Shown here: positions 796-35,402 of the stretch, in pieces
How positions within the stretch are numbered: position 1 is the stretch's first letter
Layout of the letters: every line of letters begins with the position of its first letter
From: Prasinococcaceae sp. CCMP 1430
Lineage: Eukaryota; Prasinodermophyta; Palmophyllophyceae; Prasinococcales; Prasinococcaceae
DNA length: 64,000 bases
NCBI GenBank assembly: GCA_013416795.1
Contig: RQSC01000032.1
Span: 781,397-845,396, forward strand
Reading direction: 5' to 3'
Notes under the pieces: generated by a model
Seen by the model: only the letters and a program-made list of their open reading frames with translations
What the model was told of the DNA's origin: nothing
The model's database searches: none
Translations under genes and position numbers: made by a program

Positions 796-1191
796 GCGAG
801 CCGGCGCGCGGGCGGGCCGCGGCGCGGCGCGGCATGGGTGTTGCGGAAAGGGACATGGGACAGGGATTTAGATTTAAATTCCGGTTCGAGAAGCCTCCGG
901 ACCGGGCTATAAGGTAAAACCTCCTTTTAGGCTCACATGACTCCCGGCTGATATGGCTGGAGCTCTTTTCGGTTGTTGGTTGGTGGGCGGGATTGCAATT
1001 GGTTCGTTGTTGGCACGTTCAAATTCAGTTGCAATGCAATGCAACGATGGTGGATGCCCGCCCGCGTTCGAAAAGGCCCGAGGAAATGAAGGAGGGCGCG
1101 CACGCGTGGTTGGCCGAGGGCGCGCCACGGCGGCGCGCGCGCGCGCGGGATGCCGCGGGGTTGGGGTTCGCGGTGCTGTCGGCGCGCGGCG

Positions 1192-30287: not shown

Positions 30288-30589
30288 CGCTCACAACGAG
30301 TGCAGCGCACTCAGCCGCTTCGAGGCATCTATATTGTGATCATCGCGGCGACCTATATTGTATTGGGTCGTGACAGCTCTGCGCGCAAACCTACAGTACG
30401 TAAGCAAGTGGTCGAGAACTGTACCTCTGTCTCGGTCCTCCGTGTGCGTGCGGCAGGTGATGCACGACGCCCCTTGTATGTTACAATACTCTATAGACAA
30501 TAAGCTTGTTAGCTGCTGCTCTTCTTCTCATGGCCCTCTCTTCCACCCGCCTCCCTCCTCGCGCGCGGGCCCGCATCGCTGTGTCGAGT

Positions 30590-30655
30590 GCGCGAGCTCA
30601 GGCAGCGACCCCTCACAAAGTTGTGAGTTTGGGCCGTGCCATCATGATCGTCACG
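30590..30655 (-). promoter_or_regulatory. SECIS element (selenocysteine insertion) of the DsbA-like selenoprotein
   Basis: It lies about 150 nt downstream of the selenoprotein stop on the same strand. Its parts are: core ATGA (30645-30642), T plus ten bases of helix II 5' strand (GGCACGGCCC), unpaired AAA (30630-30628), an apical mini-helix CTCACAA/TTGTGAG, the helix II 3' strand (GGGTCGCTGCC, one bulged C), and core TGA (30600-30598). The distance from ATGA to AAA is 11 nt, as expected for eukaryotic SECIS elements. The mini-helix makes it a form-2 type. Helix II has ten pairs including one G-U. The lower helix I is only partly paired. Confidence 0.85.
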
Positions 30656-30805
30656 TGCGATGACAGCCATTGGCGAGGATTCTGAAGGGGTGAGCCTGGA
30701 CAAGCAACGGCAGCAGCAGCTGGCGCCTCCACTGCGGTCTCAGAAAGCAGCAAGAGTGCGCTTTCGCGCATGCGTCGCGTAGCCTCAACGCGGCGCCTGT
30801 GGCTC

Positions 30806-31804
30806 CTAGATAGAAGGCGCCACGTCAGCCTCTGCTCCCTGTCCCGCCCCATTCGCCGCACGAAGCTCCGCGTCGACCATGGCCAAAAGAAGACGGTAGA
30901 ATTGCTCGTTCGATCCACTGCCTTGGTGCATCACCGCCCCTTCCGAGCCGTCTCCCCACGGTCCACCATTGGTGTATTTCGCAGGCCCGTCGTGGTTGAA
31001 TACAAAGTAGGGGATCGAGTGTATGTGGTGCACATGTATGGTCTCCCCGTACGATTTCCACACCTCGTCTGCCAGTTCGTCAGTATCGAGCCAAGCGTCG
31101 AGCGCGCCAACGTCCAGCCCAGCCTCCTCGGCGGCTTCGAGGATCGTGGAGCGCTCGCTGGCGGACTTCCGCTCCGTGAAGTGGCGCTTGCTCAGCGCAC
31201 TCATGAACTCCTCCTGCTTGCCCTGGCGCGCGGCCCACAAAAGCGTGCGCTGGCTCTCCACTGGCTGCCACTGGGTGTACACATCGTAGTTCAGCGTCGT
31301 CCCTGCCTGCTCAGCAAGCGAGCGCATCTGCGACTCGATTGCGTCGCGAGCGCGCGGGTCGCCGCCGACGTACGTCAAAAGGCTCTCGTGCCACGTGCCG
31401 GGTTTCAGCCGCACCTCGGCGCCCGGCGGCGCGTCGGCGATGAAGCTGTACGGCCGTCGGCGCACGTCGATGGACAGGTACACATCGGGGCACTCCTCAG
31501 CCAGCCGCTCGAGGGCGTGCTGGATGTTGAGCTTCCCGATGTATCCGTGTGGTCACTGTGTGCATGTCACAAAATCGCCGACCAGCCGCACCTCCGTGGC
31601 GCCGCTGTTTGTGGTCGGGGGCGTGCGCGAGCCCGGTAAGAGGTTGCGCACGCGCTGGGTGGCCTGTGGGACGCCTCCACCGGCGGCGGCGGCGCACGCG
31701 GCGTCGCCGGCGCCGTCGGCGGCGGAGTTCGCCGCGACGTGGGGCACGGTCGTGGTCATCAAGAAGGTCCGCGTGTCGCGCCGCGCCGCGCCACGCGGCG
31801 CCAA
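30806..31804 (-). CDS. DsbA/FrnE-family thioredoxin-fold selenoprotein with CxxU motif (in-frame TGA at 31555-31553)
   Basis: Reading through TGA at 31555-31553 gives one continuous protein of 332 residues (ATG at 31804) or 317 (ATG at 31759). Before the TGA is EVRLVGDFVTCTQ, a thioredoxin-fold first strand. After it comes PHGYIGKLNIQHALERLAEE, the lead helix seen after the CPxC motif of DsbA/FrnE and HCCA-isomerase proteins. The TGA thus sits at the redox centre, C66-T-Q-U69 counting from 31759. The rest of the fold follows: an alpha-helical insert and HIHSIPYFVFNHDGPAKYTNGG, the cis-Pro strand (SIPYF). A SECIS lies in the 3' UTR. Conventional annotation would start at 31483 and lose the active site. 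It is probably a thiol/selenol oxidoreductase; the compartment is uncertain, and the N-terminal 50 residues are low complexity. Confidence 0.85.
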
Positions 31805-31839
31805 AAGTGCTCGTGTCGGGCGCCGCCACCGTATGGCGC

Positions 31840-34800
31840 ATGCGCCCGCGCAGCTCCAGGGAACCGCCGCTGACGCGAGCGCGCCTCTGCCTCGAACAAC
31901 AGGACGGGTCCGATGGCCCCCAGATGCCTCTTGACGACGCTGGCGTTTACGCCATCGGCCGCAGCGACGAATGCGACGTGCGCGTCAACCGCGAGGGCGT
32001 CGAGGACGTGCACGTTGAGCTTATTGTCGAGGAGTACGCGCGCGGCGCAATGCTGTGCGCCATGGCGTCGGCTAATCCCGCTAGGCTCAACGACGCCCCC
32101 ATGGAGGGCGAGCAGAAGGTCCGCCTCCGCAACGGCGACACCTTCGAGGTCGGCGGCCGCCTCTTTCGCTACGAGACGGACGACACTGAGGAGCGCATTG
32201 CCGAGGAAGTCCTCGTGGCAAGCGCCAAAAAGAGTGCCAAGAAAGGTGAGCTCGCACCCAGCACCGTCCAAGGAGTGCCGCAGCTCTGCCTTGAAGCGCC
32301 CCATCCCACCCCCCGGTCCCCTCCCCGATCCCTCACTCAGACTTCGCCGGTCCAGCTGAATGTGCTGCGCGTGCTGACTTCCTAGCCTCCGCCAAACAAA
32401 CGCGTCTCGCTCATGCAGCCAAGCGCGTGTCGTTTACTTCGCCGATGTCGCGCAGCCCGCTTGGCGCCCACAACGCCAATCTCGCTGGCCGGCAGCCGAC
32501 GCCCTTCCGCAGTTCTTCGGCCAAGAGCCCGCTCAACGTGAGGAGCCCTATGACGCCGAAGGACAGCAACACCCCGAAGGCAAAGTCTTCAACGCCCAAG
32601 GCGGCCACCCCGAAGGCGGCCACGCCCAAGGCGGCCACGCCCAAGGCAGCCACGCCCAAGGCGGCCACGCCCAAGGCGGCCACGCCCAAGGCGGCCACCC
32701 CGAAGGCGGCCACGCCTAAGATGCCGACCCCCAAGGCGGCCACGCCGAAGGCGGCCACCCCCAAGGCGGCCACTCCGAAGGCGGCAACGCCCAAGAAAGA
32801 CCTAACCGAGACGCTTTTGTCGCCTGTTGCAGCTGTCGAAGGCGCCAACACGGCTATCTTCGAGGCTGACTATGGTGCGGATGATTTCACCAATGCTGTC
32901 TTCCCATCGATCAAGGCGGCCACCCCTAAGGTCACCACGTCCAAGGCGGCCACCCCGAAGGCGACCATCCCGAAGGCGACCACCCCGAAGGCGGCCACGC
33001 CCAAGGCGGCCACGCCCAAGGCGGCCACCCCCAAGGCGGCCACCCCCAAGGCGGCCACGCCCAAGGCGGCCACGCCTAAGATGCCGACCCCCAAGGCGGC
33101 CACCCCCAAGGCGGCCACCCCCAAGGCGGCCACCCCCAAGGCGGCCACCCCCAAGGCGGCCACGCCCAAGGCGGCCACGCCCAAGGCGGCCACCCCGAAG
33201 GCGGCCACGCCTAAGATGCCGACCCCCAAGGCGGCCACTCCGAAGGCGGCCACGCCCAAGGCGGCCACCCCGAAGGCCGCCACGCCCAAGGCGGCCACCC
33301 TCAAGGCGGCCACGCCCAAGGCGGCCACGCCCAAGGCGGCCACGCCCAAGGCGGCCACCCCGAAGGCGGCCACCCCGAAGGCGGCCACCCCGAAGGCGGC
33401 AACCCCGAAAGCAGCCACGCCTAAGGCAGTGTCCCCGAGGAGCCGCACGCCCAAGGCGGGGACGCCGACAGAGGTCGCTGTAATTGCGAATCTCTCCCCG
33501 GTGGTGCTGAATGACGTTGTCGAGGAGGGCTGCGAGGCCATCGTTGAGGACGTAGTCGACGTTGAGCAGGCGATGCCGGCCGCCTGCACGCTGGCTACCA
33601 GTGCAACAACCATGCGCTCACTGTCCACGTCTCTGCGCGCGGAGATCAATGCCAAGGGTGCAACGCCCACGCGGTCGACCCCCAAGGCTGCCACACCGAA
33701 GGCTGCTACCCCCAAGATGGCCACTCCGAAGACGTCAGCCAAGAAGGCTGCCGCTACGCCAAAGTCTGCGGCTGTGACCCCCGAGATCGCAGGTCTTCTC
33801 GACTCGCTGGTGGCCAGTGCGTCCAAAACCGGGCCGAGGAGCGCCGGTCGCCGTCGCAGCAGTGTCGGCAAGTTTGCGCTCGCCTCGCCCGTGTCGGCGA
33901 AGAAGCGGTCACTCGAGGACGAAGACATCGAGATGATGGAGGTGTCGCCGCCCGCGAAGCAGGCCAAGCAGGTGCAGCCCGAGGACGGAGCGGAGTCCGA
34001 GGAGGAGGTCGCTGAAGAGGACGCTGCCGCTCCCAGCCCAGTCGAGTTTGAGGTGCCCGCGTTTGAGGACGCTGCCGACGATGCGGCCGAGGATGCTTGC
34101 GAGGACGTTGAGGAGGCCGACGCCGATGTCAGCGCCGAGGTCGACGAGGCAGTAGTTAAGCCGGTCGGAGCAGTGGTCCGCATGCCGCGGGACCCGCGCG
34201 CGCTTCTGCACGCAGGTCTGCACAAGTCCAGCATGAACCGCGCCAACATGCGCCTCAAGGGCATGGTGCAAGATCTGGAGTCGAGGCTCGATGCAGCGCT
34301 CACTGCGCTTCAGCATTCCGAGAACGCGCGCGAGCGCGACGCGCGTCGCCTCGCCAAGGCGGCATCCAATGTCGCGCAGCTGCGCGCTGCCAACGCATCC
34401 CTGGAGAAGAAGCTCGCCAAGGCGAAGGCCGACTCAATCATCACCAAAAAGATTGCCCAGTACAAGGCCGACATGCAGATGAAGGCGATGATGGCAGCCC
34501 CCGAGATTGCCACAGCGCCCGCAGTTGAGCCTGCGGCCGTGACCGAGGAGGTGATCGTCGAGGAGGTCGTCGAAGAGGAGCCCGTCGCTGCCGCCGCCGA
34601 GGAGACCGATGAGGTGGTCGCCGAGGAAGTGGTCGCCGAGGAGGCCGAGGACACCGATGAGGTGGTCGCCGAGGAGGCCGAGGACGTCGAGGAGGCGGTC
34701 GCCGAGGAGGTCGACGAGGTCGAAGAGGCGGTCGCTGAGGAGGCGGTCGCCGAAGAGGCTGAGGAGGCGATTGTCGAAGTGGCGGTCGCCGAGGAGGATG

Positions 34801-35402
34801 AAGAGACGGCAGCTGAGGAGGAGATCGCCGAAGAGGCGATCGCCGACGAGCCCGAGCCCGAGGCCATGGATATTTCCATGGAGGACGTCGAGGACGTCGA
34901 GGAGTCTGAGGATGATGAGGTGGTGGTGAACAAGACCCCCACTCCCGCCAAGATCGCGCAGGAGATTGTCGTCCTCGAAGAATCAGACAACGACGCAGCG
35001 AACGATCAGGACGAGGTCGCCGACTCTGAGCCGCTCGAGGAGCAGGCTGAGGCTGAGGTCGAGACTGCTGTTGTTCAGAGCACGCCAGAGATCGTCGAGG
35101 TGGTCGCGGAGGCCGAGGCGGAAGGGGAAGGCGAAGAGGAGACTCCGTGCCTGGTCTGTGGCTCGTGCGACGACTCAGAGGAGATCATGCTTCTGTGCGA
35201 CGGCTGCGATAAAGCCTGCCATCTCTCCTGCGCGGGCTACAAGCGCGCACCCAAGGGCGACTGGTTCTGCATCGAGTGCAAGCCCACCAAGCGGGGCCTC
35301 GACGCCGCCGCCGCGTGGCGCAAGGCCAACGGCAAGGAAAACAACGCCGCGGAGGCCAACGCGGCGCCTGTAGCAAGGCGCTCTACGCGAAGCCGCCGGT
35401 AG
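31840..35402 (+). CDS. Ki-67-like FHA protein with PP1-binding RVSF, TPKAA repeats and C-terminal PHD finger, two exons
   Basis: Exons 31840-32245 and 32386-35402 join in phase (AAG|GTGAGC...TCCTAG|CC) and encode 1140 residues. Exon 1 is an FHA domain closest in pattern to Ki-67/MKI67: [48 protein letters not shown]. Exon 2 opens with [19 protein letters not shown] (residues 149-152) is the PP1-docking form used by Ki-67 and Repo-Man. Tandem TPKAA repeats with many TP sites follow, then a coiled coil (about residues 760-830), acidic EEVVAEE repeats and a C4HC3 PHD finger (from about residue 1057: [20 protein letters not shown]). It is likely a chromosome-associated scaffold, phosphorylated at TP sites in mitosis. 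The start is 35 or 80 bp from the divergent selenoprotein start. Confidence 0.85.
32577..33440 (+). repeat. 15-bp tandem repeat encoding TPKAA
   Basis: The unit AAGGCGGCCACGCCC and close variants occur about 15 times at 32577-32790 and about 35 times at 32912-33440, separated by about 120 bp of unique sequence. TPKMPTPK variants recur at the same phase in several blocks, which suggests higher-order duplication. Length may be polymorphic and may be collapsed in the assembly. The antisense frame is also open throughout but is an artefact of the repeat. Confidence 0.95.

Follow-up and report, generated by a model that had tools for sequence, protein, structure and literature searches.

The window, that is, the whole 64-kb stretch of DNA that was analysed, encodes on its minus strand a protein of 317 residues related to the DsbA/FrnE family, whose reading frame (31759-30806) is open from start to stop except for a single in-frame TGA, and which is followed in the 3′ UTR by a stem-loop with the layout of a SECIS element. 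The features at the locus are the following:

30806..31759, minus strand: predicted selenoprotein coding sequence, DsbA/FrnE-like, 317 residues, ATG at 31759-31757 and TAG at 30808-30806 (based on the frame, Pfam PF01323 and a family profile)
31553..31555, minus strand: in-frame TGA, read as selenocysteine 69 (Sec69), aligned with the first Cys of CPWC
31562..31564, minus strand: Cys66 (TGC), position -3 from Sec; Asp at this position in the paralogue and in 7/7 CPWC homologues
31544..31546, minus strand: Gly72 (GGA), aligned with the second (resolving) Cys of CPWC; the paralogue has Gly here as well
30588..30654, minus strand: SECIS, form 2, with ATGA at 30645-30642, AAA, mini-helix and TGA at 30600-30598, starting 151 nt past the TAG stop
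31760..31839, no strand: 80-bp gap separating the gene from the first ATG (31840) that is plausible as the start of a divergent FHA frame, possibly a shared promoter

When the TGA is read through, the peptide around it is DFVTCTQ-U-PHGYIGK (in longer context ...EVRLVGDFVTCTQ-U-PHGYIGKLNIQHALERL...), and the frame and its translation bear out both the TGA at 31555-31553 and the peptide CTQ-U-PHGYIGK that an earlier note on this DNA had reported. The read-through protein matched the Pfam DSBA family (PF01323) with an E-value of 3.1e-13 and 50.4 bits, above the gathering score of 25.6, and the 225-aa part from position 31483 taken alone gave an E-value of 1.4e-10; a search of NCBIfam with the window protein gave no match. 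Among solved structures, the best relatives of the window family by profile were FrnE (5cp1, E 2.5e-40; 5cnw, E 3.2e-40) and the putative DsbA oxidoreductase SCO1869 (3gl5, E 2.1e-34). The two FrnE chains, which we take to be from Deinococcus, differ from the window protein in carrying CPWC, with Cys at both positions. Coding similarity had also been described as running unbroken across the TGA. This holds for the downstream part, where the Pfam match lies, whereas the similarity upstream is weaker, the Pfam match beginning only about two residues ahead of the TGA. As had been anticipated, a shorter protein is what gets annotated: a GTG at 31483 opens a 225-aa ORF downstream of the TGA, and the protein database entry P0001, also of 225 aa, is 99% identical to the post-TGA part of the window gene.

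In the stem-loop behind the stop codon, an ATGA is followed after 11 nt by AAA, then by an apical mini-helix of 6 bp, a return strand in which one base is bulged out, and a TGA. That is, the quartet, the AA/AAA motif, the two-part stem and the 3′ UTR location by which SECIS elements are judged are all found here, and the structure that the earlier note had placed about 150 nt past the stop was recovered with every part it listed. The proposal that the segment 30590-30655 folds as a SECIS likewise stood, with a folding z of -3.7 and 0/200 shuffles equally stable. When both strands of the 64-kb window were scanned for SECIS structures, two sites had energies of -12 kcal/mol or lower, the element being the best with -17.8 kcal/mol and the other site having -12.5 kcal/mol; when the 500 nt after the stop were shuffled preserving dinucleotides, none of 2000 shuffles reached -17.8 kcal/mol (best shuffle, -14.7).

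The Rfam SECIS_1 model gave the element 18.6 bits (E 3.8 in 2.5 kb), which falls below the gathering score of 35. Over the whole source assembly (24.5 Mb, 145 contigs), the same model returned three matches at E<=10, of 20.6, 18.7 and 18.6 bits, all under that cut-off, and each of the three follows a redox frame with a TGA; two of these frames are GPX and the third is the window gene. The window element scores on a level with the two GPX elements of this genome (20.6 and 18.7). Both GPX frames read ...VENVAGLUGTTV..., with the TGA at the Sec column, and the one that was checked against Pfam matched GSHPx with an E-value of 1.2e-26. The GPX elements, being close copies, do not count as two independent controls; furthermore, their folding z values are modest (-1.13 and -1.20), so that a good z is no general mark of a SECIS in this genome. 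In one GPX-like frame (L003, G000:C68, about 520-700) the Sec segment LDLGAAKGKVALVENVAGLUGTTVKDY is tandemly duplicated in frame, resulting in two TGA codons; this frame could be a genuine GPX with two Sec residues, or else a pseudogene or an artefact of assembly.

When the genome was searched in all six frames, a second DsbA-like locus came to light on contig C43 (195033-195608, minus strand; L006); it too contains a TGA. The product of this paralogue is 27% identical to the window protein over 66-254 and, when spliced over an inferred intron of ~114 nt, reads VAVELVSDTM-U-PNGYIGKRHVLNAMRR..., in which case its TGA falls at the same column as that of the window gene. Its centre, ...SDTM-U-PNGYIGK, has U-P-x-G-Y-I-G-K in common with the window gene, with Gly at the second-Cys column and Asp at position -3. 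A SECIS-like hairpin (ATGA...CGA) begins 126 nt past the paralogue's stop:

L006 about 1100-1165, minus strand: SECIS-like hairpin of the paralogue, with CAGAG instead of AAA and, on the 3′ side, CGA instead of TGA

This hairpin was found with a looser pattern and a duplex scan and is accordingly weaker evidence than the element of the window gene; the Rfam SECIS search reported none at the paralogue locus, and the folding z of the hairpin was -1.63, with 13 of 200 shuffles as stable. A CGA on the 3′ side was also seen in one of the GPX elements (L003). P0048, which MMETSP and EukProt list along with other sources, matches the paralogue at 100%. If these labels stand for transcriptomes, as we presume, the paralogue gene is transcribed.

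Homologues of the window protein were sought by scoring 8000 candidates, which gave 47 proteins, 40 of them close (E<=2.6e-26) and 7 distant and carrying CPWC, while the corresponding search with the paralogue gave 149 proteins, of which 120 were listed. All but one of the 40 close homologues of the window gene begin after the Sec column, and so do 118 of the 120 listed for the paralogue, which makes 157 of the 160 listed homologues for both clades together. A start after that column would be what gene callers yield when a stop codon lies there. The exceptions are P0008, in the clade of the window gene, which begins exactly at the Sec column with its start Met, and P0071 and P0154, in the clade of the paralogue, which in ungapped register reach the column with Leu and Pro and have nothing recognisable upstream. 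None of the 160 listed homologues has a Cys at the Sec column, and the three that reach the column carry Gly at the second-Cys column. The more distant homologues (P0041-P0047), taken to be bacterial, have CPWC in 7/7 cases, with Cys at the Sec column. The few named matches in the paralogue's clade, on which the assignment of the source to the algae is based, were Guillardia theta, Pycnococcus provasolii and 'Hemiselm...'. The viral contigs, scanned with a profile and with a TGA-containing pattern, gave no relative, nor did the scan of the genome contigs.

In a tree of 33 chosen rows, the window group (13 rows), the paralogue group (13) and the CPWC rows (7) each formed one group, with support of 100/98, 100/98 and 99/93, respectively; P0047 was flagged by the tree program for its long branch. 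The paralogue with its clade resembles the window gene in its UPxGYIGK centre, in the TGA at the Sec column and in its SECIS-like hairpin, and differs in having DxxUP (Asp at -3), an inferred intron just before the TGA and a tree group of its own.

These comparisons bear on two simpler explanations. A TGA is a stop by default, and the post-TGA part of the gene is present in the databases as a shorter protein (P0001), so the locus could be read as a pseudogene or a sequencing error, with the TGA as a true stop in a broken DsbA gene. We consider this very unlikely, given that a SECIS is correctly placed, that the paralogue has its TGA at the same column, that homologues start past this column almost without exception, and that the frame is otherwise open and conserved. 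As for the possibility that the shorter form starting after the TGA, which is the form of the database proteins, is itself the true protein, such a product would be without the catalytic residue and the first strand, the first in-frame ATG past the TGA is reached only at MRSLAEQ, deep inside the conserved domain, and the same truncation recurs among the listed homologues of the paralogue; the chance of this being correct seems minute.

The part of the window gene ahead of the TGA was also considered on its own. A protein search with this part alone gave nothing at E<=10. When peptides were scored against the 7 CPWC homologues, the 10-mer preceding the TGA was among the top 153 of 111,828 window 10-mers (0.14%), the 9-mer ranked at 680 of 113,265 window peptides (0.60%) and the 8-mer at 339 of 114,737 (0.30%). 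The upstream peptide of the paralogue scored far better, with only 2, 7 and 2 window peptides as good (8-, 9- and 10-mer, respectively). By codon statistics, the pre-TGA part scored higher in frame 0 (-0.04) than in the other two forward frames, yet one reverse frame (-0.029) did at least as well. The peptide comparison suggests, as support and not as proof, that the upstream part of the window gene is coding.

Alternatively, the stretch before the TGA, including CTQ, could belong to the 3′ end of an intron with the terminal sequence ...CACACAG, in which case the Sec would be real and the Cys at -3 absent from the protein. The window DNA directly ahead of the TGA reads ...GCACACAG, the inferred intron of the paralogue ends in ...CACGCAG two bases ahead of its TGA, and introns ending right before the TGA would leave the TGA in place. 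However, the upstream peptide aligns without gaps with both the paralogue and the CPWC homologues, its 10-mer ranking as given above, and each of the seven in-phase GT-AG removals that end at the AG before the TGA (15-192 nt) loses part or all of this aligned stretch, EVRLVGDF being kept by the 15-nt one only. We therefore regard such an intron as improbable. The proteins that result from the seven removals are poor, and none was sensible. An intron that would take out the TGA itself can be considered as well: the first AG past the TGA follows at a distance of 22 bases, where the GYIGK codons end, and such an intron would therefore also remove the motif common with the paralogue.

Part of the selenocysteine machinery is encoded in the same assembly. 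SepSecS was found with an E-value of 4.2e-112, over the cut-off, in a search that also matches the control Bacillus subtilis; a TAG and a TAA fall within the match and presumably lie in introns. Three PSTK-like stretches within 0.9 kb of contig C54 (best E 3e-8, 36 bits against a family cut-off of 382) are likely to be exons. SPS/SelD was not found in the 24.5-Mb assembly, and the sole finding of that search was a 1495-aa frame with two AIRS_C matches, presumably PurL. For tRNA-Sec, no match above cut-off was obtained in the assembly, 53 of the 2117 first-look candidates having been scored; there were 11 weak matches, and at the 8 of these loci scanned with ARAGORN the program reported ordinary tRNAs. 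Since SPS is always encoded by selenoprotein genomes, as stated in the available text of PMC4561486, the failure to find SPS and tRNA-Sec is put down to an incomplete assembly or to what the tool could detect. A tRNA-His/tRNA-Cys pair is repeated on contigs C41 (twice, on opposite strands) and C98 (L011-L013), and is perhaps organelle sequence or an inverted repeat.

At the active site, the ungapped register (DFVTCTQ-U in the window gene, ELVSDTM-U in the paralogue, DFVSDVS-C in a CPWC homologue) puts the TGA on the first Cys of CPWC, and hence at the redox centre, where the earlier note had also located it. That is, Sec69 stands where the first (attacking) Cys would be. The two-residue CPxC of the DsbA/FrnE dithiol oxidoreductases is not present, since the motif is U-P-H-G, a Sec and then a Gly; replacement of the second catalytic Cys by Gly had been recognised from the window sequence alone, and the alignment agrees, with Gly in the paralogue too. 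The further claim, that the active pair has moved upstream to a CxxU, is not borne out by the alignment. In CxxU selenoproteins, such as those of the SELENOW type, Cys and Sec form the CxxC pair where the active helix begins; here the letters C-T-Q-U are present, yet it is the Sec that falls on the first Cys of CPWC, with Cys66 opposite the Asp at -3. Moreover, the paralogue has Gly at the second-Cys column and yet Asp at -3, so that loss of the second Cys is uncoupled from the presence of a Cys at -3. Judging from the alignment, the Sec is not displaced, and at most its partner Cys would be new; the loss of the second Cys would be a trait common to the window gene and the paralogue.

Cys66 may nonetheless be the partner of Sec69. 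It is conceivable, though we doubt it, that the two form a selenenylsulfide (CxxU), the redox pair having then moved upstream by three residues relative to CPxC. The second Cys being Gly, no other thiol lies closer to the Sec along the chain than Cys66; this residue replaces an Asp that is found in all seven CPWC homologues and in the paralogue, and other Sec proteins with CxxU motifs appear in the available text of PMC13188914. However, the paralogue has the Gly without a Cys at -3, and a CxxU pair is therefore not required in the family. In the thioredoxin fold, furthermore, position -3 sits ahead of the active helix, and its reach to the Sec is not obvious. A related and rather unlikely scenario, which we put forward only tentatively, is that the resolving Cys of a DsbA-type selenoenzyme was lost, with Gly now in its place, and that a new Cys arose at -3 instead of the Asp, giving C-x-x-U-P-x-G with the Sec still at the nucleophile position; the redox pair would then have crossed over to the opposite side of the attacking residue.

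What was observed directly at the locus and in the genome is the frame, the SECIS, the same pattern in the paralogue and part of the Sec machinery. We consider it highly probable (about 93%) that the window gene encodes a genuine eukaryotic (probably algal) DsbA/FrnE-like selenoprotein of the thioredoxin fold, in which UGA-69 would be recoded by way of the form-2 SECIS; the selenoprotein, its family and its SECIS, as first proposed, are backed by several independent tests. In the model that we propose for this selenoprotein, the form-2 SECIS of the 3′ UTR would direct the ribosome to insert selenocysteine at UGA-69, and the selenolate would stand at the beginning of the active-site helix, in the place that the attacking Cys of CPxC has in FrnE, and would attack disulfides or peroxides. 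Because the second Cys is Gly, another thiol would have to resolve the mixed intermediate, most likely a small thiol, e.g. glutathione, as in monothiol enzymes, and less likely Cys66 at -3.

Selenoprotein DsbA has been published for algae and marine invertebrates (PMC7539508, PMC3473315, PMC2874816), and the accessible portions of these reports describe, as in the window gene, Sec at the upstream active-site Cys and a SECIS downstream, which in both Ciona species is of form II. It is also argued in PMC2874816, in the text available, that the upstream Cys of E. coli DsbA can act without the downstream one, and a U-x-x-G centre therefore fits. Mamiellophyceae are described as having a Sec-containing FrnE (PMC6627142), which by that description is another case of Sec in an algal FrnE. 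Selenoprotein DsbA in algae is thus already known, and the unusual feature is the Cys three residues before the Sec: the published text consulted on eukaryotic selenoprotein DsbA names no residue for position -3, here Cys, or for the second Cys, here Gly. No description of CxxUPxG in eukaryotic DsbA was found in the literature text consulted, a weak negative given that alignments sit in figures and supplements.

Among prokaryotes, DsbA-like selenoproteins with UxxC and DxxUP motifs are listed in the available part of a 2026 review (PMC13188914), and the GOS survey, in its accessible text, has UxxC and UxxV forms (PMC2398784). The paralogue fits the DxxUP motif, whereas the window gene has CxxUP. 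The prokaryotic DxxUP type (form 2 in PMC13188914), compared here by its description, is like the window gene in belonging to PF01323 and in having Sec followed by Pro, and unlike it in the Asp at -3 and in being listed under the crotonase/enoyl-CoA hydratase family.

The two DsbA-like genes found here both have the appearance of selenoprotein genes whose products lack a resolving Cys, and the occurrence of DxxUPxG and CxxUPxG paralogues in one organism would make the resolution step of a single-selenol DsbA directly testable. The start of nearly all listed homologues past the Sec column points to a widespread family whose annotations regularly lack the catalytic residue; DsbA records of Ciona and amphioxus are described as mis-annotated, with the Sec part left outside the coding region (PMC2874816, available text).

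On the other side of the 80-bp gap, divergent frames at 31840-35402 on the plus strand encode an FHA domain (PF00498, E 2e-7). In a second divergent ORF, from 32427 on the plus strand, a PHD finger (PF00628, E 3.9e-6) occurs together with long ATPKAATPK repeats, and the two frames could perhaps belong to one nuclear protein with an intron. The region 32580-33480 on the plus strand contains dense repeats with units reading ATPKA.
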